64,000 nt of DNA from a virus. The translations under genes were made by a program, and so were the position numbers. Position 1 is the first letter of the stretch. The number at the start of each line of letters is the position of its first letter. The stretch spans positions 1 through 64,000 of IMG/VR virus record IMGVR_UViG_3300037502_002506, one strand, 5' to 3'. Below, one piece after another: positions 19,846 to 45,355 of this stretch. The notes under the pieces were generated by a model. It saw only the letters and a program-made list of their open reading frames with translations, was not told the origin of the DNA and ran no database searches.

Positions 19846-19942
19846 AGGCATATTATAGGCTATCAAACATATTGCTCGTTTAGAGCATAAGGGGTTTGTG
19901 TTTCTATTTTCCGCCGAACTTTAAATGGTGTATAATGTAATT

Positions 19943-20608
19943 ATGGATCCCATTTCGAAAGAAGAAGATACAAGTACTTATAATTTTGACGCTTTAAAAT
20001 CAAATGTTCCGTTTATTGTAAATGGACAGGTTGTAGGACAACACCCAGACTATTTCGATAGATCTGAAATCTATAAGCAAAATTTTGAAAAAATGGGTAG
20101 CGATTCAAAAAATATTAAAATTATTAAAAATTTTATTTCTGAAAGAGAATGTAAAATATTAATACAGTATATAAATACTTTTGCAATACCAAAGGAATAT
20201 CCAGTTAAATGGGATGAAAAACTTGAACCAATTGTTACAAGAAAATCATATGTAAATGTAGAACCTACATATAAATATGTTCCATTAGTACAAGATTTAC
20301 TAGAAAAAGAATACGGATTTCCAGTAAAAAATAAAAATGTATTTGTCGGTAGATGGGACGTAGGGGATAATTTAGATTTACATGTAGATGATTTAGGCAC
20401 AACCAGTACTAATCATATGGCAACACTTATATATTTAAACAGTGATTATGAGGGGGGAGAGATTGAGTTTCCAACTCACAACATATCTCACAAGCCTCAA
20501 GCAGGAGATCTCATAATGTTTCCTGGCAATATGCACTATGCTCATGAGGTAAAAACCATTACATCTGGATCAAGATATAGTATTCCGATGTGGTTTGAGT
20601 TTGTATAA
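19943..20608 (+). CDS. 2-oxoglutarate/Fe(II) oxygenase, prolyl 4-hydroxylase type
   Basis: 221 residues from ATG 19943, six bases after TATAAT (leaderless). A double-stranded beta-helix fold is predicted from the prolyl 4-hydroxylase pattern: iron ligands His147-x-Asp149 and His201, and 2OG-binding Arg211, with DYEGGEIEFPTHNISHKPQA and the GDLIMFPGNMHYAHEV block. The reaction couples 2OG decarboxylation to substrate hydroxylation. The substrate is unknown. It is a close paralogue of the C-terminal half of the 22050-23504 fusion, and is followed by a sulfotransferase-like gene. Confidence 0.85.
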   Translation: MDPISKEEDTSTYNFDALKSNVPFIVNGQVVGQHPDYFDRSEIYKQNFEKMGSDSKNIKIIKNFISERECKILIQYINTFAIPKEYPVKWDEKLEPIVTRKSYVNVEPTYKYVPLVQDLLEKEYGFPVKNKNVFVGRWDVGDNLDLHVDDLGTTSTNHMATLIYLNSDYEGGEIEFPTHNISHKPQAGDLIMFPGNMHYAHEVKTITSGSRYSIPMWFEFV

Positions 20609-20611
20609 GTC

Positions 20612-21247
20612 ATGAATGATGATTCATATATAATTAAAGATTGGGCTATAGTCACATTACCCCGTGTCGGAAGCCATTACTTACAGGAAAGAATATTTGC
20701 ACATACGGGCAAATTGATAGTAAAGTATCATGAACCAAAACCTCAAACCTGGGGCTATGCAATTAAGGGATTGCTTAAACGCAACAACCGTTTTTGGAGC
20801 GGATTAGAGGTAGATAAATTAAAATTAATAACCATAGTTAGAGACCCAAAAGATTTACTAATATCACATATTGCTTTATCTATAAAGCAAAAAGATACAA
20901 GATTTGTTATAGAAGATAATTTTTCATTAAATCTTGGTAATATTAAGGGTTTGATAGACAAATCTTGCAAACAGTACCTAGAACTTGAAGAAATTAGCAG
21001 TATAGTTATAGACTATAATCAATTAGTATCATTTCCATTTGAGGTTACTTCAGCCGTAGCCAATATTTTAGAAATTGATATAATTACAGATAAATATGAG
21101 ACACGCCTAGCAGATTCTGAAGGATATTCCGTAAGTAGTAAAGAGTTACCACAATATGATGATGTAAAAAATGTTATAAATGATATGGATCTCTCAGATT
21201 TTTATCAGGCTTACAATAAAATATTATCTAGGGCCATCACCCTATAA
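20612..21247 (+). CDS. sulfotransferase-like protein 1
   Basis: 211 residues. The N-terminal TLPRVGSHYLQERIF matches the 5'-phosphosulfate loop of P-loop sulfotransferases (TxPRSGSTxL). ITIVRDPKDLLISHIAL matches the 3'-phosphate loop (RDPxDxxxS). These bind PAPS and transfer sulfate to hydroxyl or amine groups. Shorter than typical bacterial enzymes (about 250-300). It starts three bases after the oxygenase stop, so the two may act on one substrate. Two diverged relatives are at 29611 and 31521. Confidence 0.7.
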   Translation: MNDDSYIIKDWAIVTLPRVGSHYLQERIFAHTGKLIVKYHEPKPQTWGYAIKGLLKRNNRFWSGLEVDKLKLITIVRDPKDLLISHIALSIKQKDTRFVIEDNFSLNLGNIKGLIDKSCKQYLELEEISSIVIDYNQLVSFPFEVTSAVANILEIDIITDKYETRLADSEGYSVSSKELPQYDDVKNVINDMDLSDFYQAYNKILSRAITL

Positions 21248-21802: not shown

Positions 21803-22060
21803 TTGTCACAAGAAAATATTAAAAAAAGAAAGTTGTTGGATGGTTCTGAGGTTAATGATTATGACTATCCAATTGATTTAATTTTACATACTAAGGCTCC
21901 AGGTAAATGGAAAGTTATTGATCTTGAAACTGGGCAAGAATATTTGGGTTCTGAAATAACACATAGCACCTTTGGAGAGATTTTACGCACCAAAGTAAGT
22001 AATGGTAAAATAGGATCTTGGCTTAAAACTAAAAGGAGAGACGGATCTAATGTCGAATAA
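21803..22060 (+). CDS. hypothetical protein (TTG start)
   Basis: 85 residues read from TTG 21803 after GGGGA. An 11-codon leaderless frame (ATG 21787, six bases after TATAAT) overlaps the start in another phase and might be a leader peptide. The protein is basic with no family match. It overlaps the fusion oxygenase gene by 11 bases, so it may be needed with it. Confidence 0.5.
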   Translation: MSQENIKKRKLLDGSEVNDYDYPIDLILHTKAPGKWKVIDLETGQEYLGSEITHSTFGEILRTKVSNGKIGSWLKTKRRDGSNVE

Positions 22061-23504
22061 ACCAATAACCTTCCACTGGATGTGGAGGAGACACTGGCAG
22101 ATAAGTGACAGTATCGAAAACCTAGACCTTGATGGAATTCTACGTATGGCACAAGAATTAGATGGTGCAAACGTTAAGTCCGTTTTACTTCCATATGGTC
22201 CAGGTGGTATTGATTTTTCTTTAGTTATAAAAGACGCATTAGAAAAAACAAATCAATTAATTATGACAATTGCTTTACCTGCATATGGAACAAGTCCTGA
22301 CTATGCTGCTAAAATTTTAGAAACATTAAATCGTTTTGCTCCTGGAAGAATTGGAGTAAACCTTGTTGCTGGAAGATGGGGAGATGAAGGAAACAGCACT
22401 GCAGAAAAATTAGTAATAGATCATTATATGCATGACTCTTCACTTATTGATACCCTTGCAAAAAGGGTGGCAATATCAGAAGTTTGGATGGATAAGGTTA
22501 TGGCATTAATGGAAAAACATCAGCATAAAACACATATGGCTGTTGTTGGTTCCTCAGACACAACAATCAGGATAGCAAACAAGCATTGCGAATACATATA
22601 CGTAGATGATAATCTGTTACGTAATCCTGAGCAGTACGCAAAAATAACTAATTCAAAGCCAATCCTTATTGTAGATCCGCTAATAATTGAAAAGCCTGAA
22701 GACGTAGACAATGTTATCTATGACGAGAATGCTCCGCCAAGAAAACAATTTCATCATATAATTGGAACACATGATGAGGTTGTTTCTGCAATTAAAGGTA
22801 TTGCAGAAAAATTTAATATTTATGATTTTATGATACATACAGATCAAAAAGATATTAGCAAATTGTTAAAACTAGTAAAGGAATTTGATAAAGTGCAACC
22901 TAACAACAATGATATGGAACATTTTGATATATCGAATGATGACAGAAGGCCTGAAGGATCTACAATTCATCATGAGGTTTTTGAAAAATTAGGATCTAAG
23001 CCAGATAATTTAAAAGTCTTTACTAATTTTATTTCTCCAGAACAATGCAGCGCTATTATAGAAAGCATAAAAAATTCAGAGCCATCGTCTGAAAAACCAG
23101 TTCAGTTTAGCCCTGATGGGAATCCCCTGACTTTTAGAAAAGACTGGGATATAAATCCGTACATAGATACATACAATGACATTGTTCGTGGTGTTATTGA
23201 GGCAGAATATCCAGTTAGAGTAAAAAGCAGAAGTGCAAAAATTGCAGAGTGGACAAAGAATGATGTTTATGATTTACACATTAATGATCTAGGGATAAAT
23301 GATTTTAATAATATGTCTGTCACTATATATCTTAATGATGATTTTGAAGGCGGAGAATATTATTTTCCCACTCAAAATAAAATCTTTAAACCAAAGGCTG
23401 GAGATTTAATTATTTTTCCAGGGAACATGCACTATAATCACATTATAAGCAAAGTTACTTCTGGATCAAGATATACTATTCCCTTATGGTATACCTTTAT
23501 TTAA
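22050..23504 (+). CDS. luciferase-like monooxygenase fused to 2OG/Fe(II) oxygenase domain
   Basis: 484 residues in two domains. Residues 1-285 resemble the bacterial luciferase/alkanesulfonate monooxygenase TIM barrel (GRIGVNLVAGRWGDEGNS near 99-116, GSSDTTIRIA near 167-176), which uses reduced FMN or F420. Residues 305-484 are a prolyl 4-hydroxylase-like fold, paralogous to 19943-20608. In this domain the iron motif is His410-x-Asn412 instead of His-x-Asp, with His464 and Arg474 kept. Fusion of a flavin/F420 oxidase to a 2OG oxygenase-like fold is unusual. Both could act in sequence on one substrate. Confidence 0.8.
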   Translation: MSNKPITFHWMWRRHWQISDSIENLDLDGILRMAQELDGANVKSVLLPYGPGGIDFSLVIKDALEKTNQLIMTIALPAYGTSPDYAAKILETLNRFAPGRIGVNLVAGRWGDEGNSTAEKLVIDHYMHDSSLIDTLAKRVAISEVWMDKVMALMEKHQHKTHMAVVGSSDTTIRIANKHCEYIYVDDNLLRNPEQYAKITNSKPILIVDPLIIEKPEDVDNVIYDENAPPRKQFHHIIGTHDEVVSAIKGIAEKFNIYDFMIHTDQKDISKLLKLVKEFDKVQPNNNDMEHFDISNDDRRPEGSTIHHEVFEKLGSKPDNLKVFTNFISPEQCSAIIESIKNSEPSSEKPVQFSPDGNPLTFRKDWDINPYIDTYNDIVRGVIEAEYPVRVKSRSAKIAEWTKNDVYDLHINDLGINDFNNMSVTIYLNDDFEGGEYYFPTQNKIFKPKAGDLIIFPGNMHYNHIISKVTSGSRYTIPLWYTFI

Positions 23505-26294: not shown

Positions 26295-26368
26295 GGAGCA
26301 GTAGCCAAGTTGGTCAAGGCCCCGAACTCATAATTCGGCTATCGTAGGTTCAAGTCCTACCTGCTCTA
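26295..26368 (+). tRNA. tRNA with CAT anticodon (Met or Ile2)
   Basis: A 7-bp acceptor stem (G1-U72 first pair), anticodon stem CCGAA/TTCGG with loop CTCATAA, T arm GTAGG-TTCAAGT-CCTAC, A73. Without further identity analysis it could be elongator Met or lysidine-modified Ile(AUA). Confidence 0.85.
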
Positions 26369-26548
26369 CAAGGTCTATCCAGAATTCGACTCAGGATAGA
26401 TACAACTGCCCCGAAACTTTCGCAGGTGGAAGTCGTTAGATAACCCAGTCGAATGGGCCTAAGCAGACAGCATCTAGGGAGCAGAGCCAGTGGTTATATT
26501 CGCCGTAGAAACGGGTAGCGTGACTGGCACTTATAATTGCGTAGTTTA
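26369..26548 (+). ncRNA. structured RNA candidate between two tRNAs
   Basis: No good coding frame. Several complementary pairs are visible: TCTATCC/GGATAGA (about 26373-26401), CGACT/AGTCG, and GCCAGT/ACTGGC (around 26484-26530) enclosing a CGT-AGAA-ACG stem. GC content is higher than the surroundings. It may be a non-coding RNA or a processing scaffold of the tRNA transcript. No known family recognised. Confidence 0.4.
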
Positions 26549-26621
26549 GCCCTTGTAGCCCAGTGGTAGAGGCACACGACTTAAAATCGTGACAGCGTTG
26601 GTTCGAATCCAACCAGGGGCA
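26549..26621 (+). tRNA. tRNA-Leu(UAA) by anticodon, class I body
   Basis: Acceptor GCCCTTG/CAGGGGC, anticodon stem CACGA/TCGTG with loop CTTAAAA (anticodon TAA), T arm GTTGG-TTCGAAT-CCAAC, A73. The variable loop is only five bases, whereas normal tRNA-Leu has a long variable arm. The charged amino acid is therefore uncertain. Confidence 0.8.
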
Positions 26622-26649
26622 CGATGGTATACTTGATGTGGAGGAATAA

Positions 26650-27408
26650 ATGATTATACAAATTATTGGGCTGCCTGGTTCTGGCAAGACAGCACTTGCA
26701 CAGGCACTTAAAGAAAGAATTAATGCTATTCATCTTAATGCAGATGAAGTTAGATCAACGGTAAACTCCGATCTAGGATTTAGCAATGAAGATAGAATTG
26801 AGCAAGCAAGAAGAATGGGAGAAATGGCTAGGCTTATTGCCAAGCAAAATGTTGCCCCTGTCATTGTTGATTTTGTTTGTCCAACTGAAGAAGCGAGAGA
26901 GGCATTTGGTTTTGCAGATTTAGTGGTATGGGTTGATAGAATTAAGCAGGGCAGATTTGAAGATACCAATAAACTTTGGGCAGACCCTTGGCATTTTCAT
27001 ATAAGAATTCTTGATGGTTATACTATAGAAGAAGAGGTTAATACTGTAATTCAAACTGGATCATTATTTGACTGGTCTGCTCCAACTACTTTGCAACTTG
27101 GAAGATATCAACCTTGGCACGAAGGGCATCAGGCTTTAAAAGAAGAAGCCCATAAGAGAACACCACAGGTTCTTGTCGGTGTTCGTAATACCTATAAAAC
27201 ATCTGAAAAGGATCCATTGAAATATGACGAGGTGTCCGAATTTATTAAGCAGGATAATCCATTTAAAGATACGTTAGTATTACGACTACCCAATATTACC
27301 AATGTTGTTTATGGTCGTGATGTAGGATATAAGATTGAACAAGTAAAGTTAGGAGAAGACATTGAGTCTATTAGTGCTACTCAAAAGCGTAAAGAAATGG
27401 GTATTTGA
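26650..27408 (+). CDS. P-loop kinase / nucleotidylyltransferase fusion, copy 1
   Basis: 252 residues. Residues 1-130: kinase domain of APS-kinase/gluconate-kinase type with Walker A GLPGSGKTALAQ at 7-18 and LNADEVR. Residues 145-252: HIGH-type nucleotidylyltransferase (NMNAT/cytidylyltransferase fold) with LGRYQPWHEGHQALKEEA and the ISATQKRKEM signature. The pair could phosphorylate and then activate a small substrate. Strongly similar to 39049-39810, near-identical over residues 1-70. GGAGGA precedes the ATG. If the kinase makes PAPS it could serve the sulfotransferases, but this is speculative. Confidence 0.75.
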   Translation: MIIQIIGLPGSGKTALAQALKERINAIHLNADEVRSTVNSDLGFSNEDRIEQARRMGEMARLIAKQNVAPVIVDFVCPTEEAREAFGFADLVVWVDRIKQGRFEDTNKLWADPWHFHIRILDGYTIEEEVNTVIQTGSLFDWSAPTTLQLGRYQPWHEGHQALKEEAHKRTPQVLVGVRNTYKTSEKDPLKYDEVSEFIKQDNPFKDTLVLRLPNITNVVYGRDVGYKIEQVKLGEDIESISATQKRKEMGI

Positions 27409-27493
27409 TAATTCAAGTAATTCCTGGGCAGATAAAGAAGCAGAATTATTTATTAACTTTAAAGAAAAAATAGATGAGAGTAACGAAGAGTAG
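27374..27493 (+). CDS. possible overlapping small protein (GTG start)
   Basis: 39 residues (LLKSVKKWVFDNSSNSWADK) in another frame over the end of the kinase gene and the start of the DUF2061 gene. The composition is protein-like, but no ribosome binding site or homologue supports it. Confidence 0.25.
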   Translation: MLLKSVKKWVFDNSSNSWADKEAELFINFKEKIDESNEE

Positions 27494-27677
27494 ATCGTTT
27501 GCTAAAGCCTGGAGTTATAGAGTATTTGGCACCTTGACTTCTTTTCTTGTTGTGTATATAATTACTGGAGAGGCTGTTTTGGCTACCGCTATTGCATTTT
27601 GGGAAACCGTATTAAAAATAGGTGTATATTATTGGCACGAAAGAATATGGGACAAAATACAGTGGGGTAGAAAATAA
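27474..27677 (+). CDS. DUF2061 membrane protein
   Basis: 67 residues. YRVFGTLTSFLVVYIITGEA and AIAFWETVLKIGVYYWHERI-W are the DUF2061 pattern: two helices and a WHERIW end. Function unknown, though family members are often near sulfate assimilation genes in bacteria. A second copy is at 42361-42579; each copy lies within a few kilobases of a kinase/nucleotidylyltransferase gene. Confidence 0.75.
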   Translation: MRVTKSRSFAKAWSYRVFGTLTSFLVVYIITGEAVLATAIAFWETVLKIGVYYWHERIWDKIQWGRK

Positions 27678-27680
27678 AAT

Positions 27681-27752
27681 ACCTCTGTAACTCAGCGGAA
27701 GAGTAGCGGACTTCTAATCCGTTTGTCGCAGGTTCGATTCCTGCCAGGGGCA
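27681..27752 (+). tRNA. tRNA-Arg(UCU)
   Basis: Anticodon stem GCGGA/TCCGT (terminal G-T pair) with loop CTTCTAA (TCT), T arm GCAGG-TTCGATT-CCTGC, acceptor CCTCTG/CAGGGG. The first acceptor pair is an A1-C72 mismatch, which is unusual. Confidence 0.8.
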
Positions 27753-27768
27753 CTACAATTAAATACTT

Positions 27769-27841
27769 TGGTCTGTAGTTCAGTTGGTAGAACACTCGAC
27801 TGTTAATCGAGATGTCGCAGGATCGAGACCTGCCAGACCAG
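27769..27841 (+). tRNA. tRNA-Asn(GUU)
   Basis: Perfect acceptor TGGTCTG/CAGACCA, G73 as expected for Asn, anticodon stem CTCGA/TCGAG with loop CTGTTAA. The T loop is ATCGAGA rather than TTCGAAT, a deviation. Confidence 0.85.
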
Positions 27842-27869
27842 CCATGATACAATTTAGTGTGGAGTTAAT

Positions 27870-29474
27870 ATGTCAATAAACAAAATAGTAATTGTTGGCG
27901 GTGGATCTGCTGGATGGATGTCAGCAGCAACACTAATAAAAGCATTTCCAGATAAAGACATAAGTGTAATAGAATCTAAACATGTTCCAATTATAGGTGT
28001 TGGAGAGTCTACATTGGGTCAGATTAAACGCTGGACAGATTTTATAGGATTACAAGATAAAGATTTTTTAAAGGCTACAGATGCTACATATAAATTAAGC
28101 ATAAAATTTACTGATTTTTATAAAAAAGATTCTGGCGGATTTCATTATCCATTTGGAACCCCAATGGTATATAAAAATAGAAATCCATTTTACGATTGGC
28201 ATATTAAAAAATATATATCTCCAGAGACACCAGTTACAGATTTTGTAGAATGTTTATTTCCAGCAGCAGCATTATTTGCAAAAAATAAATACTCTGAAAA
28301 TCTTAATAATGAGTTCGATAATTTTGATACTAAGAGGGCTGTTGCATATCATTTTAATGCTGTTAAGTTTGGGCAGTGGCTTAAGGATTTTGTATGTTTG
28401 CCAAATGGAGTAAAACATATTGAAGCAACTGTTACTAATGTTATTAAAGATGATGAGGCAGGAATTAAATATCTTGAATTAGATAATAACGAAATTGTTA
28501 ATGCAGATTTGTTTGTAGATTGCACAGGCTTTAAAAGTCTGTTACTTGGTGAAACTTTAAATGAACCATATATTTCTTTTCAACATTTAATTCCAAATAA
28601 CGGTGCTTGGGCTGCACAGGTGCCGTACAAGGATAAAGAAAAAGAAATGGAATCCTATACAAACTGTACAGCCCTTGGAAATGGATGGTGCTGGAATACC
28701 CCACTATATTCTAGATTAGGAACTGGATATGTCCATTCAACAAAATTTATTACAAAAGAACAGGCGCTAGATGAGTTTAAGCAATACCTAATGTCAGATA
28801 AAATGATAATTCCTAGAACTAAAGAAGAAGTCGAAGATTTAAAGTTTAGATACATTGACATGAAAATTGGTATTCACGAGAGAACATTTGTAAAAAATGT
28901 AGTAGCAATAGGAATGGCTGCTGGTTTTATTGAGCCACTAGAATCTAACGGCTTATATACAGTACATGAATTTTTGTTTAAGTTAATAGATATATTACAA
29001 AGAGATAATATAAGTCAGTTTGATCGAAACATGTATAATCAATCAACTAAGTCTATATATCAAGGATTTGCTAAATTTGTATCCTTACATTATTTATTGT
29101 CTCACAGAGATGATACAGAATATTGGAGAAGCATTAAAAATGGAACCACAATAGATGTGGAAAATGAAATGCTAACTTCTTTATTTGATAAAGAAGATCC
29201 TTTTAATGATTTAGTTCAAAGATATATGACAAAACAGGAGCACCCTTTCGGTCCTGCTGGAATAACATACATAGCCACTGGAATGAACTTAAACATGATG
29301 AATATTGCTAGGGCAAAAGCGGATTACTTTGGAACAGGAATACCGCTAGGACATTCGGCCTTTCAATTTAATTCAATCTGGGAAGAAAGAAAGCAAAAAT
29401 GGAAGAATAATGCAATTAATGCACCGTCCTTATATGAGTATTTAAAAAATAATTATTTTGACGGAGAAGAATAA
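27870..29474 (+). CDS. flavin-dependent halogenase (tryptophan halogenase family)
   Basis: 534 residues. The FAD-binding VGGGSAGWMSAA is at 9-20, IIGVGESTLG follows at 41-50, and the likely catalytic Lys75 is in ATYKLSIKF. The WxWxIP motif appears as GWCWNTP. These enzymes use FADH2, O2 and halide to halogenate aromatic substrates. Halogenases are known in cyanophages. No flavin reductase is visible, so the host must supply FADH2. The substrate is unknown. Full length for the family. GGAG ribosome binding site. Confidence 0.85.
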   Translation: MSINKIVIVGGGSAGWMSAATLIKAFPDKDISVIESKHVPIIGVGESTLGQIKRWTDFIGLQDKDFLKATDATYKLSIKFTDFYKKDSGGFHYPFGTPMVYKNRNPFYDWHIKKYISPETPVTDFVECLFPAAALFAKNKYSENLNNEFDNFDTKRAVAYHFNAVKFGQWLKDFVCLPNGVKHIEATVTNVIKDDEAGIKYLELDNNEIVNADLFVDCTGFKSLLLGETLNEPYISFQHLIPNNGAWAAQVPYKDKEKEMESYTNCTALGNGWCWNTPLYSRLGTGYVHSTKFITKEQALDEFKQYLMSDKMIIPRTKEEVEDLKFRYIDMKIGIHERTFVKNVVAIGMAAGFIEPLESNGLYTVHEFLFKLIDILQRDNISQFDRNMYNQSTKSIYQGFAKFVSLHYLLSHRDDTEYWRSIKNGTTIDVENEMLTSLFDKEDPFNDLVQRYMTKQEHPFGPAGITYIATGMNLNMMNIARAKADYFGTGIPLGHSAFQFNSIWEERKQKWKNNAINAPSLYEYLKNNYFDGEE

Positions 29475-29496
29475 GTATGATAGTATATTTATTGTT

Positions 29497-29570
29497 GGTC
29501 CGTTAGTTCAGTTGGTTAGAACGCTACCCTGTCACGGTAGAGGTCGTCGGTTCAAGTCCGATACGGATCG
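29497..29570 (+). tRNA. tRNA-Asp(GUC)
   Basis: Acceptor GGTCCGT/ACGGATC, G73 as for Asp, anticodon stem CTACC/GGTAG with loop CTGTCAC, T arm TCGG/CCGA. All arms well formed. Confidence 0.9.
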
Positions 29571-29610
29571 CTAGAGCCTGGTGTATCCGTTATTGGTGTA
29601 TAATGATTGT

Positions 29611-30180
29611 ATGCAACAAAATAATTATTTGGTAAATGAGTGTGTCCCTCACCTACTTACATATAATAGAAGTGGGATGCATTTTTTTGATGATAATCTA
29701 TATGAAATAGAAAAAATTCATTTTACTCAATCACACCTTATAGAACAACTATTTGATGAAAACAACAATAAGAAAAGAGTGATAGTAACAATAGCAAGAG
29801 AGCCGACTGGAAGTATTCCTTCTTATATAGCACATCTTGGTAATTATTATTTAGAAAATGCTATCGATTTTGGAATTAGAGAAAAAATAACAGAGTATAT
29901 ACTAATGTATTCTTTCTTATGTGAACATGCAGACTATGTCATAGATTTTAATGATCTCATAAAATATCCAAAAATTGTAATTAAAAAATTATTAGAGTTA
30001 TTAAATATAGATAAAGATAAATATGTTTATTTTGAAAGAGACATTATACCTAGAAGTGAACACTATATTCCATCAAGCAAGTCGTTACCAAACTATAAAG
30101 AAAATCTGTTAGATGGCTATAATCTTGATTTATGTTATTATTACTATCATAAACTTTTAGAAAAGAAAATTATAATTTAG
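29611..30180 (+). CDS. sulfotransferase-like protein 2, leaderless
   Basis: 189 residues from ATG 29611, six bases after TATAAT. TYNRSGMHFF matches the 5'-phosphosulfate loop, and IVTIAREPTGSIPSYIAH the 3'-phosphate loop (REPxxS), both diverged. The Lys normally present in the first loop is absent, so PAPS use is uncertain. It follows the halogenase and tRNA-Asp. Confidence 0.55.
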   Translation: MQQNNYLVNECVPHLLTYNRSGMHFFDDNLYEIEKIHFTQSHLIEQLFDENNNKKRVIVTIAREPTGSIPSYIAHLGNYYLENAIDFGIREKITEYILMYSFLCEHADYVIDFNDLIKYPKIVIKKLLELLNIDKDKYVYFERDIIPRSEHYIPSSKSLPNYKENLLDGYNLDLCYYYYHKLLEKKIII

Positions 30181-30193
30181 TTTTATTTGTAAC

Positions 30194-30222
30194 TTTACAA
30201 AACTACTGAATCAATGTATAAT
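30194..30222 (+). promoter_or_regulatory. promoter before tRNA-Glu
   Basis: TTTACA, a 17-base spacer and TATAAT, about 20 bases before the tRNA-Glu gene. Confidence 0.6.
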
Positions 30223-30243
30223 GGTAATATGTCTACCAATCAT

Positions 30244-30318
30244 GGCACTATCGTCTATCGGATAGGACATCGCCCTTTCACGGCGGAAAGACGGGTTCGA
30301 TTCCCGTTAGTGCTACCA
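30244..30318 (+). tRNA. tRNA-Glu(UUC) with encoded CCA
   Basis: Acceptor GGCACTA/TAGTGCT, anticodon stem TCGCC/GGCGG with loop CTTTCAC, T arm ACGGG-TTCGATT-CCCGT. CCA follows A73 in the DNA (30316-30318), unlike the other tRNA genes here. Confidence 0.88.
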
Positions 30319-30359
30319 GTTTGGTATAATAGAATGACTACTAGTAGAAAGAAGAGCAA

Positions 30360-30929
30360 ATGAGAACTATCGGAGATAAGTTAGAGCCGTTTCGTATCAT
30401 TGGAGTAAAACCAGGTAGACTGGATGCTTCTGATGATGTATTTGAAGTATTGGATGAAAAATCATTTCCAGGAAAATGGAAGGTAATTGTATATTATCCA
30501 AAGGATTTTACATTTGTATGCCCGACAGAAATTGTGGCATATGATAAATTAGTTAACGATTTTAATGATCGTGACGCAGTATTGTTAACAGGATCAACAG
30601 ATAACGAGTTCTGTAAAATTGCATGGCGTAACGCACATGAAGATTTAAAAAAGACTAATTCTTGGTCTTTTGCAGATCAAATTCGTGAATGGTCTTGGGC
30701 AGAAGATGAAGGCTATACTGGACTTGCAAACCAATTAGGGATCTTAAATAAAGATGGTGTTGCACTTCGTGCTACCTTTATTGTTGATCCAGATAATGTT
30801 ATTCAACATGTAACTGTAAATAATCTTAATGTAGGTCGTAGTCCAGAAGAAACTCTTCGTGTACTTGATGCCTTGCAAACAGGAGAACTTTGTGCCTGCA
30901 ATAGAAGCCTTGGTGGAGAAACACTGTGA
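30360..30929 (+). CDS. ahpC: peroxiredoxin AhpC
   Basis: 189 residues, typical 2-Cys peroxiredoxin. Peroxidatic Cys54 lies in YYPKDFTFVCPTE, and C-terminal Cys178/Cys180 (ELCACNRSLGG) are candidate resolving and recycling residues. It reduces peroxides and peroxynitrite. It is coupled by a GTGA overlap to ahpD, the actinobacterial arrangement in which AhpD re-reduces AhpC. Probably protects the phage-infected cell from oxidative damage. It may also counter peroxide leaked by the flavin enzymes (inference). GAAAGAAG ribosome binding site. Confidence 0.9.
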   Translation: MRTIGDKLEPFRIIGVKPGRLDASDDVFEVLDEKSFPGKWKVIVYYPKDFTFVCPTEIVAYDKLVNDFNDRDAVLLTGSTDNEFCKIAWRNAHEDLKKTNSWSFADQIREWSWAEDEGYTGLANQLGILNKDGVALRATFIVDPDNVIQHVTVNNLNVGRSPEETLRVLDALQTGELCACNRSLGGETL

Positions 30930-31438
30930 GTTGGGTAGATGAAGTAAAGGAACTTGTTCCTGAGTATGCTAAAGACATTAAGTTAAATCTTGATGCTGTG
31001 ATCAATAGAAGTACTTTTGATTACGATTACTCTTCATCCCTTGCACTTGCAGCAGCCCTTGCAACAGGTAATCAGGACATTGTCGCTATGGTTTCTGATG
31101 GTGTTACAGATGAGGTAGAAAAAAATGCAGCCTTTACAGCAGCAGCCTTGATGGCACAGAACAATGTATGGTATCCATATACTGAGATGGCAGATGATCC
31201 AAATCTAACTGGATTACCAGCACAACTTAGAATGAATGCTATTGCATCTCATGGCGGTACAACTAAGGCGAAGTTTGAGTCGTATGCGCTTATTGCATCT
31301 ATTATTGGAAAATGTCATTTCTGTGTAAAGGCTCATTATGAAACCTTAAAACAAGAAGGATATACAACTGAACAACTTCGTGATATCGGAAGAATTGCTG
31401 CAACAATTAATGCTATCGCCAAGGTTGTCGTAGCGTAA
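30926..31438 (+). CDS. ahpD: alkyl hydroperoxide reductase AhpD
   Basis: 170 residues, GTG start overlapping the ahpC stop. Glu118, Cys130, Cys133 and His137 occupy the same positions as the catalytic relay of Mycobacterium AhpD (CxxC in GKCHFCVKAH); His is at 131 rather than 132. AhpD passes electrons from a lipoylated protein to AhpC. This supports an actinobacterial origin of the pair. Confidence 0.9.
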   Translation: MSWVDEVKELVPEYAKDIKLNLDAVINRSTFDYDYSSSLALAAALATGNQDIVAMVSDGVTDEVEKNAAFTAAALMAQNNVWYPYTEMADDPNLTGLPAQLRMNAIASHGGTTKAKFESYALIASIIGKCHFCVKAHYETLKQEGYTTEQLRDIGRIAATINAIAKVVVA

Positions 31439-31443
31439 TGGTT

Positions 31444-31515
31444 GCCTCCTTAACTCAGGGGTAGAGTACTCGCCTTGTAAGCGAGATGTCGTAGGTTCAA
31501 ATCCTACAGGAGGCT
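31444..31515 (+). tRNA. tRNA-Thr(UGU)
   Basis: Perfect acceptor GCCTCCT/AGGAGGC, anticodon stem CTCGC/GCGAG with loop CTTGTAA, T arm GTAGG-TTCAAAT-CCTAC. The acceptor's 3' strand AGGAGG sits seven bases before the next gene's ATG, so it could double as a ribosome binding site. Confidence 0.9.
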
Positions 31516-31520
31516 CTGAT

Positions 31521-32132
31521 ATGATTAACAATATGAGTAAAGAGATACATCTTATTACATATCCTAGATGTGGATCAACTTATCTTTCTAAATTATTAAG
31601 TGACAGTTTTCAAAAAGAAATTTATAGAAGACATCTTAATGGAACAAAGAAGATGGATCCCGAATATAGTAAAGATAACGATTATTATAATGATGCAGGA
31701 TCAAAATCTTTTAAAGAAAACAATTATGCAATTACCGTATTAAGAAATCCTGTAGACTCTATCTCATCTTTATGTTCTATGGAAAATTTTTATAATAAAA
31801 ATATTGATATTGATTTTAATATTAAACAATATACTGAATATTATATTTATTTTTTTAAAGATATTTTAAAAATTGTAGATTTAATGATAGATTTTAATGA
31901 TATCAATATACATAAAGATAATATTTTAAAATATGTAGGTGATAAAACTAATAATAGTATTATAAATAAAAATTATTCACCAGATATATCAGATCTTTCA
32001 GATCATCAATTTTTAAAATCTTCTAAAATAAATAAAAACTATGAATGCATTAAAGAAAAGGTTAAAAATAATGACTTAACTGAATGCTTTAACGTTTATA
32101 ATAGTTTGATAACAGAATGCAAAAAATTTTAA
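31521..32132 (+). CDS. sulfotransferase-like protein 3
   Basis: 203 residues (alternative start at 31533). LITYPRCGSTYLSKLL is a good 5'-phosphosulfate loop and TVLRNPVDSISSL a 3'-phosphate loop. Very Asn/Lys/Ile-rich, reflecting a more AT-rich composition than the neighbours and suggesting separate acquisition. The only ribosome binding site is AGGAGG in the 3' end of tRNA-Thr. Confidence 0.65.
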   Translation: MINNMSKEIHLITYPRCGSTYLSKLLSDSFQKEIYRRHLNGTKKMDPEYSKDNDYYNDAGSKSFKENNYAITVLRNPVDSISSLCSMENFYNKNIDIDFNIKQYTEYYIYFFKDILKIVDLMIDFNDINIHKDNILKYVGDKTNNSIINKNYSPDISDLSDHQFLKSSKINKNYECIKEKVKNNDLTECFNVYNSLITECKKF

Positions 32133-36622: not shown

Positions 36623-37216
36623 TCATCTTGTTTCTCTTACAGAATCAGGAATTGTATTTTCTGTAGATTCATATTCATTTATATTTCCACGATAAGGTGA
36701 ACCTTCAAAATTAAACCACAATGTAGAAGAATATCGCTCTCCAGTATTTTTAAGCACTTCATGCAAATAATGCTGATTGCTAGGGAATGTAACAAAACTA
36801 TTTGCTTTTGGCTTAATTTTTAAATCATGCCACGGGAAGTTTATTTCTCCGCCAATATAATCATCATTAATGTAGTAGATTATAGCAAAATCTCCTGTTG
36901 TATCTACATGTTTATTCATGGAATAGTCTGTTTCAAATTTAATTAAATGAAGTTCGTGTTTGTCAAAAACACGAAACTTTACATTAAAATGTTCTTCACA
37001 CTTCTTAAAGCCAAGCCTAAAAACTTTATCTAATATGTCAATAATTTCTAAGGACAACCCTTTATCAAAACTAAAGTATTTGACTCCCCAGGGCTGAGTA
37101 TGCCAATCCTTAACATTAACCGTATAGTCAAGTAATTTTTTATGATCTTCTTCAGATAAAACATTTTCTGTAATATGTATATTTTCTACAGAGTTTCCAA
37201 AATCATATTCTGTCAT
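36623..37216 (-). CDS. 2OG/Fe(II) oxygenase, prolyl 4-hydroxylase type (tandem copy 3)
   Basis: 197 residues. MNKHVDTTGDFAIIYYINDD holds His-Val-Asp, NQHYLHEVLKNTGERYSS holds the distal His and the 2OG Arg. Third of three tandem paralogues (36623, 37220, 37864). All share the YINDDYIGGEI core, which indicates local duplication. Substrate unknown. Confidence 0.85.
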   Translation of the reverse strand: MTEYDFGNSVENIHITENVLSEEDHKKLLDYTVNVKDWHTQPWGVKYFSFDKGLSLEIIDILDKVFRLGFKKCEEHFNVKFRVFDKHELHLIKFETDYSMNKHVDTTGDFAIIYYINDDYIGGEINFPWHDLKIKPKANSFVTFPSNQHYLHEVLKNTGERYSSTLWFNFEGSPYRGNINEYESTENTIPDSVRETR

Positions 37217-37219
37217 AAT

Positions 37220-37822
37220 TTATCCATACCATTCTTTATTTTTATTAAATGTAGAGCCAGTAAACTGAAACCATATAGTAGAACTATATCTATCACCTTT
37301 AAAGATTGTGGACACTTCATGCATATAACCTTCGTTTCCAGGGAAAAAGATTAAACTATTAGGATCTGGTTTAATGTTTAAATTAAATTTTGGAAAACAA
37401 ATTTCTCCACCAATATAGTCATCGTTAATGTAATATATTACTGCAATATGGTTTTCTTCACTTGACAGCGTGTCTACATGTGCATCCAGGAACATGCCTT
37501 GTCTAAATTTAATTAAATTAAGTCTATGTTTGTCTACTGGATTGATCTCTACACCATATAAATTTGTGCACTTTTCATAGGCAAGTGTAAAAACTTTATT
37601 TAATATTTTAACAATTTCTTCTGGTAAATCGTCATGGAAAACAGATTCAGAATCCCATGGTTGTCGTCTCCACATCTTATTATTTTTTACATAATCAAGT
37701 ATAATTTTATGTTCTTCTTCAGACAAAACATTTCGTATGTATTGTATATTTTCTTCAGAGTCTCCTATTTTGGCAACATTATTTAAATAAATGTCATCTT
37801 TTTCAGAAGGATCGATAATCAT
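37220..37822 (-). CDS. 2OG/Fe(II) oxygenase, prolyl 4-hydroxylase type (tandem copy 2), leaderless
   Basis: 200 residues. Ligands in LDAHVDTLSSEENHIAVIYY and GYMHEVSTIFKGDRYSS. ATG lies six bases after TAAAAT on the minus strand, so it starts its own leaderless message with copy 3 downstream. Highly similar to 36623-37216. Confidence 0.85.
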   Translation of the reverse strand: MIIDPSEKDDIYLNNVAKIGDSEENIQYIRNVLSEEEHKIILDYVKNNKMWRRQPWDSESVFHDDLPEEIVKILNKVFTLAYEKCTNLYGVEINPVDKHRLNLIKFRQGMFLDAHVDTLSSEENHIAVIYYINDDYIGGEICFPKFNLNIKPDPNSLIFFPGNEGYMHEVSTIFKGDRYSSTIWFQFTGSTFNKNKEWYG

Positions 37823-37863: not shown

Positions 37864-38517
37864 CTAATATTTCAATTGTTGGTTATAGATCTCACGAAGT
37901 TCTGTTGTTCCTAAAAATGTAGAACCAGCAAACTGAAACCTCATTGGAAAGGTGTATCTAAATCCTTCTAAAACCTCAAGTACTCCGTGAACATAGTTTT
38001 CGTTACCAGGAAACATAATTAAACTATTTGATTTAGGTTTAATTTTTAAATTATAATCTGGAAATTCTAATTCTCCGCCTTTATAGTTATCATTAATATA
38101 ATACATACAGACAATATGTTGGTGTTTTTGAGCGTCTGTATCTATATGGGGGGTCATCTTACTGCCCCTGCTCCACTTAGTTAAAAGATATTCACCCATA
38201 AAATTATCATTTGCTTCTATATCTATATCATAATAATCTATACATTTTATTCTAGCAGTTTGAAATATTTTTTTTAAAAGTTTAAGAATATTTTCTGGAA
38301 TTGCTTCTTTATGGGTTCTTTCGGTGGTCCATGGCTCTTTAATCCAAATTTGATTAGAATTATTTACAAAATAAGATAATGTTTGATATTCTTCATCAGA
38401 TAAAAAATTATCTACAATATATACATTTTTTGCAGAACTTCCTAACTTAGCAACATTTTTTAAATAAATTTCATCTTTTTCTAAATCAAGACGTTTTCTA
38501 AAAACTTCTTCATCCAT
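37864..38517 (-). CDS. 2OG/Fe(II) oxygenase, prolyl 4-hydroxylase type (tandem copy 1)
   Basis: 217 residues. MTPHIDTDAQKHQHIVCMYY has His-Ile-Asp, and NYVHGVLEVLEGFRYTFP the distal His and Arg. Most diverged of the tandem triplet, with the same YINDNYKGGELEFP core. Overlaps the 38517-38756 gene by one base. Confidence 0.85.
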   Translation of the reverse strand: MDEEVFRKRLDLEKDEIYLKNVAKLGSSAKNVYIVDNFLSDEEYQTLSYFVNNSNQIWIKEPWTTERTHKEAIPENILKLLKKIFQTARIKCIDYYDIDIEANDNFMGEYLLTKWSRGSKMTPHIDTDAQKHQHIVCMYYINDNYKGGELEFPDYNLKIKPKSNSLIMFPGNENYVHGVLEVLEGFRYTFPMRFQFAGSTFLGTTELREIYNQQLKY

Positions 38518-38756: not shown

Positions 38757-39052
38757 TATAGCAATTCCTCTGGCTGTTTTCTAATAGCAGTAATAATTGC
38801 CTTTGTGCCTTCCCACCTTACACGACCAAGGCAACCTACATTATACTTTATATCACCTTCATACTTAGATGAAATAGCATACGCATACCCATGAATTTCA
38901 AAGTCACTTGCTAATGCTTGATTTCCATTAATAAAAATTCTCCATACAAGCGGATCGTCTGCCTCTGCTTTAGTATTAAATCTTAAAATAATATCATCAT
39001 ATGGGCGCATCCATCTATCTTTTATGATAGTCCAAATATATTTAATCTTCAT
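38756..39052 (-). CDS. hypothetical protein
   Basis: 98 residues (MKIKYIWTIIKDRWMRPYDD), beta-rich with a basic helix at the end. No family recognised. Overlaps the kinase gene by four bases. Confidence 0.55.
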   Translation of the reverse strand: MKIKYIWTIIKDRWMRPYDDIILRFNTKAEADDPLVWRIFINGNQALASDFEIHGYAYAISSKYEGDIKYNVGCLGRVRWEGTKAIITAIRKQPEELL

Positions 39053-39810
39053 AGACCCATTTCTTTTCTTTTTTGTGTTGCAGAAATAGAGTGAATTTGT
39101 TCGCCTAAATCTAATTGCTCAACCTTATAACCTACATCACGACCACATACAATGTTTGTAATGTTTGGTAATCTTAGCACCATTGCACTATCCATAAACT
39201 TATCTTTATCAATATAACCCTTTACCTGATCAAAGGTAAATGGGTCTTTCTCACTTGTGTTATAGGTATTACGGACTCCTACTAGTACCTGGCTTGTTCT
39301 CTTCCCCGCTTCTCTGTAGAGTGCGTGATGCCCTTCATGCCATGGCTGATATCTACCAAGCATTAATGTTGTTGGTGCAGACCAATCATGTAATTTAAAT
39401 TGTTTAATAATTTCTGTTGCCTTTTCGTCAGGATTCCATTCGTGACTAATAAAAGCCATATCAAAATTATTAGGAACTTCAAATATCTTATTAGTATCTT
39501 CGAATCTGCCCTCTTCGATAGTTTCCATATAAATCAAAATATCTGGTTTACCAAATGCTGCACGAGTTAATTCTGTCGGACATACAAAATCTACAATTAC
39601 TGGCGCTACATTTTGCTTTGCAATCAACCTCGCCATCTCTCCCATACGACGAGCCTGTTCAATCCTATCTTCAGCGGTAAATCCAAGATCAGAATTAACC
39701 GTAGCCCTGACTTCATCTGCATTAAGATGAATTGCATTAATGCGTTCTTTAAGTGCTTTTGCTAGTTCTGTTTTTCCAGAACCAGGAAGTCCTATAATTT
39801 GAATTATCAT
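39049..39810 (-). CDS. P-loop kinase / nucleotidylyltransferase fusion, copy 2
   Basis: 253 residues from ATG 39810 (GGAGAAAAA upstream; a 13-residue extension is not supported). Kinase Walker A GLPGSGKTELAK, LNADEVRATVN; nucleotidylyltransferase LGRYQPWHEGHHALYREA and ISATQKRKEMGL. Near-identical to copy 1 over the first 70 residues but different between about 85 and 135, where a substrate lid would lie. ATGA overlap with the WhiB gene. Confidence 0.75.
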   Translation of the reverse strand: MIIQIIGLPGSGKTELAKALKERINAIHLNADEVRATVNSDLGFTAEDRIEQARRMGEMARLIAKQNVAPVIVDFVCPTELTRAAFGKPDILIYMETIEEGRFEDTNKIFEVPNNFDMAFISHEWNPDEKATEIIKQFKLHDWSAPTTLMLGRYQPWHEGHHALYREAGKRTSQVLVGVRNTYNTSEKDPFTFDQVKGYIDKDKFMDSAMVLRLPNITNIVCGRDVGYKVEQLDLGEQIHSISATQKRKEMGL

Positions 39811-42606: not shown

Positions 42607-44028
42607 CTACCTGCAGATTGTAAAGTTATATGTATTTTCCCATGCCGTGATGTCTTTTTCATCATTCAATAAAGGCTGTCCCTTTATGTTTAAACTTGTA
42701 TTTAGTAGTATTGGAACCCCAGTCATAGTATACCAATTAGATAGAACCTCGTATAGACCTGGATGCTGTTGTCTATTGACCGTCTGCACCCTTGAGGTTC
42801 CGTCTTTATGAACAACAGATGGTATTTTGTCTGGCCTTAAGCATTTTACAGCATACTGCATGTATGGCGATGAAAATCTCATGTCAAACCATTTATCAGC
42901 GTGTTCTTCCATAACTACTGGAGCAAAAGGTCTAAATAGTTCTCTTTTTTTAATAAGATTAACTTTATCTTTTATGAGTGGGTCTCTAGGATCAGCAAAA
43001 ATTGATCTATTGCCTAAAGCCCTAGGACCATACTCTGCTCTTCCTGTTGCTACTGCTGCCACCTTATCTCTAATTAAACTAGTAATAATTTGATTTACTG
43101 GATACTCCCCGCCTAAATCATGACCAAGGTATGGGCTTTTCCAATTTAAATGCTTTCCATAAAACGCTGCTGCTGCACCAAGAGATGATCCTGCGTCTCC
43201 AGGATTGGGCATAATCCATACATCATCAAACATTCTCCAAAGCATCGTATTCGCTGCACAATTTAAAGCACATCCCCCCATAAAAACAAGATTGCGCTTG
43301 CCTGTAAGTTTTTGTGCCATCGACATAAAGTTTACTAATCTATTTTCATATACCCGTTGTACTGCTGCTGCAATATCAAACTTATCTTGTTCTGTAATGG
43401 GCATATCCCAATCAAAAATGCCTTTATGAAAGTTATATTTTTGTTTTTGTAAGTCTGGGAAATATTCATTTACCTTAAGAAAATATTTTGACCAATCTCC
43501 ATATGCCGCCATGCCCATAAATATATATTCTTCTTCATTAGGTTTTAGTCCAACTAACTGCGTAAATGCCGAATAAAATAATCCAAAACTAAATGGATAA
43601 TTTTTTTTATAAACAGATTTTATATCTGATCCTTGACCCACCCAAATACTTGAAGTGTTATATTCTCCGATTGCATCTAATACAACTATGACCGCATCAT
43701 TAAACTTACTTGTATAGTACCCAGCGCAAGCATGTGAATAATGATGATTAAAATATTTAATTGGTAAATCCATTGGGATATTCGGCTTCCAATCAGCAGC
43801 CCCACCCTTTAAAAATATTCTTGATCTTTTCAACTGAGGATGCTCGTAGTATGCAATATGTGTTGGCGTCCCATAATTTAAGAGATCTAGGTAAATATCT
43901 TTATTGTTATACCAGTCATTTTTTTGCTTGCTGTACCTTTCTGCATGTCCAGAAAATAAAATTTCTCCGTCTTTAATTAAAGATACAGAAGCGTCATGAG
44001 AAGTTTCATTTATTCCAAGTATTATCAT
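42607..44028 (-). CDS. carbamoyltransferase (NodU/CmcH type)
   Basis: 473 residues. MIILGINETSHDASVSLIKD, YFNHHYSHACAGYYTS and GGCALNCAAN are the ASKHA (Kae1-like) domain. RAEYGPRALGNRSIFADPRD and the PILLNTSLNIKGQP end form the C-terminal part. It makes carbamoyl-adenylate from carbamoyl phosphate and transfers carbamoyl to a hydroxyl or amine. Known targets are antibiotics, Nod factors and, for some phages, modified bases. Shorter than the typical 550-600 residues. The substrate is unknown. A GT60-like gene and oxygenases lie upstream on the same strand. Confidence 0.85.
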   Translation of the reverse strand: MIILGINETSHDASVSLIKDGEILFSGHAERYSKQKNDWYNNKDIYLDLLNYGTPTHIAYYEHPQLKRSRIFLKGGAADWKPNIPMDLPIKYFNHHYSHACAGYYTSKFNDAVIVVLDAIGEYNTSSIWVGQGSDIKSVYKKNYPFSFGLFYSAFTQLVGLKPNEEEYIFMGMAAYGDWSKYFLKVNEYFPDLQKQKYNFHKGIFDWDMPITEQDKFDIAAAVQRVYENRLVNFMSMAQKLTGKRNLVFMGGCALNCAANTMLWRMFDDVWIMPNPGDAGSSLGAAAAFYGKHLNWKSPYLGHDLGGEYPVNQIITSLIRDKVAAVATGRAEYGPRALGNRSIFADPRDPLIKDKVNLIKKRELFRPFAPVVMEEHADKWFDMRFSSPYMQYAVKCLRPDKIPSVVHKDGTSRVQTVNRQQHPGLYEVLSNWYTMTGVPILLNTSLNIKGQPLLNDEKDITAWENTYNFTICR

Positions 44029-44029
44029 T

Positions 44030-44116
44030 TTAATAAATATACCTTCTATTATTGTCTGCCTTTTTTATTTTACGAATTAAAAAATAAAGTTTAATTTTTT
44101 TAATTATTTTTTTCAT
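44030..44116 (-). CDS. tiny basic peptide
   Basis: 28 residues, very Lys/Ile-rich (MKKIIKKIKLYFLIRKIKKA), amphipathic. GGAGAAGC and an ATGA overlap with the oxygenase stop support translation. It lies between the oxygenase and the carbamoyltransferase. Confidence 0.4.
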   Translation of the reverse strand: MKKIIKKIKLYFLIRKIKKADNNRRYIY

Positions 44117-44784
44117 GCTTCTCCTGTCGAATAGACCATTTCTCTCATATTATGATACCAATGAGGCAAGGAATACCTAGAACCGCTTGTTATTGGATAT
44201 ACTTCGTGAACATATAAAAAGTTAGAAGGAAAAAAAATAATACTTCCTGCAGGAGGCTTAATTTTTATTTTAGAATTTTGAAACTCTATCTCTCCACCCT
44301 CATAGTCATCGTTTAGATAACTTACAGTGGAAAGAATCCTACTGCTAATGCCGTGATCAATATGTGCAGGCAAAAATCCGCCAACTTCGTATCTTAATAA
44401 ATGAATGCTGAATTCTCTATTTTTTATATTTTTTCCACAAAAGGGATAAAGTGTGTTTGCATAATGATTGGTAGCAAAATCTAAAGATTCATATAGTTTT
44501 TTGGATATACTTAGTTGCTCATTAAAATAATAATCGCTAGGCTTTATGGCATGCCGTGGGGGTAAAAACTTTTGCCAACAAAAAGTTTCCATAGTTTTAG
44601 CGCTTTCATTTTGCCATGGCTTCCATGGCTTTATATTAGTAAAAGATGTTCCATGTTCTTTATTCTCGTATCTTTTATCTAAAGAGTTAAGGTCTTCTAT
44701 AATTTGTCCAGGTTCTTTAATTACATTTTTATATAATACTAAACCAAGATCTAAAATTTCATATTCTAGCAAGAGGATATACAC
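44113..44784 (-). CDS. 2OG/Fe(II) oxygenase
   Basis: About 223 residues if GTG 44784 is the start (GGAAGG close by); TTG 44772 is an alternative and no ATG fits. Core: FLPAHIDHGISSRILSTVSY (His-Ile-Asp), DDYEGGEIEF, LYVHEVYPITSGSRYSLP (distal His, Arg). The gene overlaps the end of the 44759-45355 oxygenase, so the two are probably made together. Confidence 0.75.
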   Translation of the reverse strand: MYILLLEYEILDLGLVLYKNVIKEPGQIIEDLNSLDKRYENKEHGTSFTNIKPWKPWQNESAKTMETFCWQKFLPPRHAIKPSDYYFNEQLSISKKLYESLDFATNHYANTLYPFCGKNIKNREFSIHLLRYEVGGFLPAHIDHGISSRILSTVSYLNDDYEGGEIEFQNSKIKIKPPAGSIIFFPSNFLYVHEVYPITSGSRYSLPHWYHNMREMVYSTGEA

Positions 44785-45355
44785 CAGCCTTCCATAAGCC
44801 TGGATTAGGATGATAATCTGGATCTGCATGTTGTGGCAGACTAGTATGCATAAAAAGCGCTGTAAATCTTTCACCACGGGTAACTGTAGTTATTCCATGA
44901 ATATATTCTGTTCCCGCTCCTGGAAAAAATACTGCAGAATACTGTTTTGGTTTATACTGAAAATCTTGGTTTGGAAAATAAATTACTCCACCATCATAAC
45001 TTTTTTCATCACTTAAATAAATAATTGTACTAAACTCAATAAAAGATTCGGGGTCTTGTGCATCAATATGTAGTCCGCCCTTAGTTCCAGGCACCCAGTG
45101 AGATCCAAAACCTTTAAACACATATATTGGATTTACAAATCCATTTAACGCTTTGTGCATTTCGTTAGATTTTTTCCCATATCTTATCATTATATCTTGT
45201 ACCGTTTTGTTGTATGGTAATGAAGTTCCGCCATATCTATCAGAGTAATACTTTGGGTATGGATTTTTTTCTGAATTAGGGTCTAGTTGTTGCTGAATTA
45301 GAGTCGCTGCATCATCTGGTGTAATAAAATTTTCTATAACTGTTATTCTATGCAT
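44759..45355 (-). CDS. 2OG/Fe(II) oxygenase
   Basis: 198 residues. GGLHIDAQDPESFIEFSTII (His-Ile-Asp), YDGGVIYFPNQDFQYKP, and EYIHGITTVTRGERFTALF (distal His, Arg). A more diverged member of the group. AGGAGATAA ribosome binding site and a TATAAT upstream. Coupled to the next oxygenase. Confidence 0.8.
   Translation of the reverse strand: MHRITVIENFITPDDAATLIQQQLDPNSEKNPYPKYYSDRYGGTSLPYNKTVQDIMIRYGKKSNEMHKALNGFVNPIYVFKGFGSHWVPGTKGGLHIDAQDPESFIEFSTIIYLSDEKSYDGGVIYFPNQDFQYKPKQYSAVFFPGAGTEYIHGITTVTRGERFTALFMHTSLPQHADPDYHPNPGLWKAGVYPLARI

Follow-up and report, generated by a model that had tools for sequence, protein, structure and literature searches.

What does a prolyl-hydroxylase-like domain do when its iron-binding site is altered and it is joined to a luciferase-like enzyme? 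This question is raised by a fusion gene found in the window, i.e., the whole stretch of viral DNA analyzed in this study, 64,000 nucleotides in length (positions 1 to 64,000 of the IMG/VR record IMGVR_UViG_3300037502_002506). The source record contains 66,323 bases and may be a fragment. The fusion gene, its domains, and its upstream neighbors are listed in Table 1.

Table 1. Positions of the fusion gene, its domains and metal-site residues, and the genes located upstream of it in the window.
Feature	Position	Strand	Basis or distribution
Intact prolyl-hydroxylase-like paralogue, H-x-D...H...R	19925..20608	+	PF13640
Sulfotransferase-like gene	20612..21247	+	PF00685, 25.6 bits
Small gene, 85 codons, TTG start, overlaps the fusion start	21803..22060	+	Upstream position in relatives
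Fusion gene, 484 aa: luciferase-like and degenerate prolyl-hydroxylase-like domains	22050..23504	+	Intact ORF
Luciferase-like (SsuD-type) TIM-barrel domain, residues 1-285	22050..22904	+	Sequence, conservation, and Foldseek matches
Low-confidence linker, residues 286-304	22905..22961	+	pLDDT <50
Prolyl-hydroxylase-like domain, residues 305-484, without the H-x-D...H triad	22962..23501	+	PF13640; ligand columns
H410-I411-N412: first His kept, ligand Asp replaced by Asn	23277..23285	+	Ligand columns of the family alignment
H464, distal His position	23439..23441	+	Tyr in 68/70 majority-clade copies
R474, Arg expected to hold the 2OG C5 carboxylate	23469..23471	+	Invariant, 185/185 copies compared

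The open reading frame of the fusion starts with an ATG codon. Its C-terminal domain matches the 2OG-FeII_Oxy_3 family (Pfam: PF13640) at residues 403-481 with 36.9 bits, the gathering score being 27. An AlphaFold model of the fusion, built with 29 family members as input (pLDDT 77), resembles MsuD, SsuD, SfnG, and the F420-dependent PepI (Foldseek against PDB, E-values from 6e-13 to 1e-10). All the top PDB matches of the N-terminal half belong to the bacterial luciferase-like monooxygenase family and share its TIM-barrel fold; phage luciferase-like and phage 2OG proteins were matched as well. Thus, the two-domain architecture proposed in the first-pass annotation, a TIM barrel (residues 1-285) followed by a prolyl-hydroxylase-like fold (residues 305-484), was read correctly. 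In some phages, the two parts are encoded by adjacent genes, and the loss of a stop codon could mimic a fusion. Nevertheless, the same full-length in-frame fusion was found in at least 80 loci from many metagenomes. In one viral scan, 132 relatives were found, and the best 80 of these 132 all contain the complete fusion, represented by 53 distinct sequences. A frame or assembly error between the domains is excluded by these independent contigs, and the chance that the fusion arose artificially during sequencing or assembly is negligible.

The luciferase-like half, herein referred to as LLM, scores 12.2 bits against the Pfam luciferase family (PF00296), below the gathering score of 27.9. Weak matches were found to the alkanesulfonate monooxygenase model NF001939 (E = 1.2e-7) and to the SsuD and MsuD chains in PDB (E-values from 8e-4 to 2e-3). 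The NCBIfam cut-offs for alkanesulfonate monooxygenase are missed (NF001939, 30.9 versus 510 bits; TIGR03565, 29.2 versus 518.2 bits), which rules out a plain SsuD. The fold of LLM is shared with the FMNH2-dependent sulfonate/sulfone monooxygenases SsuD, MsuD, and SfnG (Foldseek E-values from 6e-13 to 2e-12), to which it has weak sequence similarity at residues 25-127 approximately. In contrast to these enzymes, which are about 380 residues long, LLM has about 285 residues, is followed by an extra C-terminal domain, and carries an invariant signature of its own (HWMWRRHW, GRWGDEGN, YDFMIHTDQ). The F420-dependent oxidoreductase KvPepI is similar to LLM in length and fold (target-normalised TM-score of about 0.71), but the identity is just 12-14%. 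Two luciferase-like proteins of uncultured Caudovirales, A0A6J7WN64 and A0A6J7WQ01, have the same fold (target-normalised TM-scores of 0.82 and 0.72, respectively) but are standalone proteins of about 250 residues that are 17-18% identical to the phage fusion. Judging from these similarities, LLM would be an FMN- or F420-type TIM-barrel enzyme, the choice between the two cofactors being undecided. The synthesis of F420 was reported to be absent in freshwater Nanopelagicales and present in marine Actinomarinales (PMC7771536).

No cellular relatives of the luciferase-like domain were found in 84,980 species genomes scanned by short peptide patterns. Among annotated phages, none was found with the same domain at useful similarity; the matches were limited to ssuD-annotated genes of Acinetobacter phages (best E = 2e-3). 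The open-access literature contained nothing relevant on a phage luciferase-like/2OG protein. The earlier statement that no protein with this architecture has been described thus stands for the annotated phages, the 84,980 species genomes, and the open-access papers, UniProt and InterPro being outside the scope; it does not extend to unannotated viral contigs, many of which have the fusion.

Metal-binding positions were compared in 79 distinct LLM-linked domains, including 69 fused ones and 10 encoded by an adjacent gene. This set was pooled from five viral-contig scans, each represented by the best 80 of its matches, with queries from both of the clades formed by the linked domains. Since there are two such clades, herein referred to as the majority clade and the window clade, the 79 sequences do not correspond to 79 events. 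Residues H410, N412, H464, and R474 of the fusion align with the H, D149, H, and R of the upstream paralogue, the ORF of which (from 19925) has its second ATG at 19943. The triad H-x-D/E...H was found in none of the 79 linked domains, the window copy included, whereas H-x-D...H is present in each of the 106 unlinked paralogues encoded at these loci among the matches listed. The lone apparent exception among the unlinked paralogues is a fusion copy broken by a frameshift (L274:3372-4741); its LLM and oxygenase parts are in different frames, with the break between about 3956 and 4046, and this copy is disrupted or mis-sequenced.

The commonest pattern in the linked domains is P-x-D...Y, the P being replaced by S, A, or R in others, and four copies have P-x-N...Y with no canonical ligand left. 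In the majority clade, H410 is lost in 70/70 copies and H464 in 68/70. In the window clade, H-x-N was found in seven of the nine distinct copies, all seven retaining both H410 and H464; the other two, L015 and L016, have L/Q-x-D...H and have lost H410. No alternative set of metal ligands is conserved among the linked domains. On the other hand, R474, matching the Arg/Lys that binds the 2OG C5 carboxylate, is invariant in the 79 linked and 106 free copies, and Y427, a Tyr of the core strand, never varies in the copies compared. The change in the linked domains is specific to the metal site: in every group, R474, Y427, F439, and the GG motif show little or no variation. The presence of Asn412 in place of the ligand Asp, with Asp149 kept in the paralogue, had been noted in the first-pass annotation and was borne out by the alignment, from which its orientation toward the metal site was judged as well; it is one detail of this wider pattern. 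Additionally, a scan with the majority-type domain yielded 36 close relatives (at least 73% identity), every one located directly behind an LLM part, after which the identity of the matches drops to about 30%. Phage prolyl-hydroxylase-like 2OG oxygenases (PHROG 61 and PHROG 2297; PF13640) have the fold, the core motifs, and the 2OG-pocket Arg in common with the linked domain, but their complete H-x-D...H triad never occurs in it.

The two halves of the fusion differ in conservation: columns with at least 97% identity make up 169 of the 285 in the LLM half versus 38 of about 180 in the oxygenase half. In nine other loci, LLM (283-287 aa) and the oxygenase-like part (180-184 aa) are encoded by two adjacent genes. 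In phylogenetic trees, these split forms are located inside the fused majority clade, so the two parts seem to have been joined or split repeatedly. A single origin of the degenerate domain has tree support of 94/91; the alternative topology, grouping the window-type domain with the neighboring intact paralogues, was not rejected (p-AU 0.19). The first 180 or so residues of LLM are common to both clades, and residues 183-282 differ. L016 is chimeric, with majority-type sequence to about residue 262 and window-type sequence from there on. The switch point lies near the border between the two domains, as though the oxygenase-like part could be swapped as a module.

A small gene of 80-90 codons was found directly upstream of the LLM gene in 78/78 distinct cases, overlapping its start mostly by 4 to 16 bases, and translational coupling of the two genes is likely. 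The small gene of the window has no Pfam match, and its AlphaFold model is uninformative (pLDDT 47). Its product shares similarity with the tail at the C-terminus of PHROG 4098, a T4-like phage protein of 559 aa, exemplified by gp041 of Escherichia phage EcS1 (L132:983-2662), which is encoded between the genes for arabinose-5-phosphate isomerase and phosphoheptose isomerase. Therefore, this short domain exists in two forms, on its own and as part of a large protein. In 55/63 loci, the second gene upstream (position -2) of the LLM gene is an intact prolyl-hydroxylase-like one. In the window, a sulfotransferase-like gene stands between the intact paralogue and the module. Sulfotransferase-like genes follow the module in many loci, and the one in the window may belong to this modification island. 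The DnaE-like polymerase and the terminase are 58 and 56% identical, respectively, to their counterparts in Streptomyces phages; because of this resemblance, an aquatic actinobacterium is the probable host, and the phages with the fusion probably form an aquatic family infecting actinobacteria.

Other genes for modifying enzymes were observed in the same DNA. Several small proteins that resemble sulfotransferases and have a P-loop of the PRSGSHYF type, most of them below the Pfam cut-off, are encoded near oxygenase genes at 20612-21247, 29611-30180, and 31521-32132 of the window, and such proteins are also encoded downstream of the module in L100, L107, and L121. Five more prolyl-hydroxylase-like 2OG genes or pieces are located on the minus strand (36626-37216, 37223-37822, 37867-38517, 44116-44877, and 44762-45355). 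The oxygenase domain of the fusion was matched at seven places in the 66-kb record, at 44116-44877 over its second half only. A gene for a flavin-dependent tryptophan halogenase (27870-29474; Pfam E = 2.4e-100; PHROG 2928, E = 2.9e-137) encodes a second enzyme of the reduced-flavin type in this phage. The window also contains two copies of a kinase-like P-loop gene with the same N-terminal sequence (26650-27408, which also has a weak cytidylyltransferase-like domain, and 39052-39810) and a gene for a NodU/Nol-like carbamoyltransferase (42610-44028; PHROG 1601, E = 4.9e-103). Seven tRNA genes are scattered among the auxiliary genes at 26295-31516 rather than forming one array.

The protein is rather likely to be a luciferase-like enzyme carrying a pseudo-oxygenase module for docking or substrate recognition. 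Because conservation is concentrated in the LLM half, this half is taken as the catalyst; the TIM barrel, of FMN or F420 type, would be the active enzyme. The prolyl-hydroxylase fold was retained, but the domain most likely no longer acts as a 2OG/Fe(II) oxygenase and is probably a binding module instead. It probably has a substrate or partner in common with its intact upstream paralogue, which it would bind and deliver to the active site of the luciferase-like half. The occurrence of both fused and split forms fits a physical partnership of the two parts, and the small overlapping upstream gene probably encodes a third, co-translated component. A more specific proposal, which we put forward tentatively, is that the pseudo-prolyl-hydroxylase serves a luciferase-like oxidoreductase as a substrate-presenting or 2OG-sensing module, together with the small co-translated protein, and that the catalytic and pseudo-catalytic neighbors act on the same target.

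The first-pass annotation had considered the domain to be inactive, a scaffold, or catalytically altered, the last by analogy with 2OG-dependent halogenases. In these halogenases, the ligand Asp is replaced by Ala or Gly and both His are kept. In the window protein, this ligand position is altered too, but to Asn, and most relatives keep D412 and have lost both His. A halogenase-like site was rejected as unsupported by this family-wide ligand pattern, and the family data favor an inactive domain or a scaffold. Human AspH is a natural 2OG oxygenase that, like the window protein, has no ligand Asp; two His suffice for its activity, and its variants left with one His ligand are still active (PMC8252765). 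Therefore, the window clade could keep iron chemistry at a two-His site (H410 and H464), possibly in an altered form, and the protein would then be bifunctional. The retention of both His in most window-clade copies and the invariant R474 agree with such a site, but H410 is lost in L015 and L016 of the same clade. The argument from AspH, which keeps both His, is weaker for the majority clade because of its loss of H410 and, nearly always, H464; this clade nonetheless has the same partner and gene order. On balance, a residual iron enzyme is unlikely.

The loss of the metal site and the divergence of the domain, which is faster than that of LLM, could also point to a decaying relic without function. 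However, the dN/dS of the degenerate domain is 0.14-0.17 (pairwise median of 0.14-0.16; 0.15-0.19 as a ratio of sums), compared with medians of about 0.10 in the LLM half and 0.23 in the intact paralogue. Purifying selection acts on the degenerate domain, which, with a value below that of the intact paralogue, is not decaying. Moreover, it is nearly always full length and, when unfused, is kept as a separate adjacent gene, making a relic very improbable. It is also conceivable, though improbable, that the pseudo-oxygenase is a regulatory subunit pairing with the intact paralogue, or a 2OG sensor reporting the nitrogen/carbon state of the host to the LLM enzyme. The frequent position of the intact paralogue at -2 and the retention of R474 and Y427 in every copy despite the lost metal ligands are in line with such a role. 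Against it, AspH that had lost Fe ligands showed an apparent Km for 2OG about 100- to 200-fold higher (PMC8252765).

Pseudoenzymes are well known among kinases. To our knowledge, few clear-cut natural examples exist among 2OG oxygenases. A single changed ligand can too readily be taken for novel chemistry. In the viral loci compared here, one fold is represented by 106 intact and 79 degenerate copies, and the two kinds are separated strictly by pairing with an LLM enzyme. The role of an oxygenase fold without a metal site is thus directly testable, with the intact control encoded next door. With the LLM enzyme and its pseudo-oxygenase, the known repertoire of phages of aquatic bacteria is extended by a conserved redox module that has apparently not been described before.
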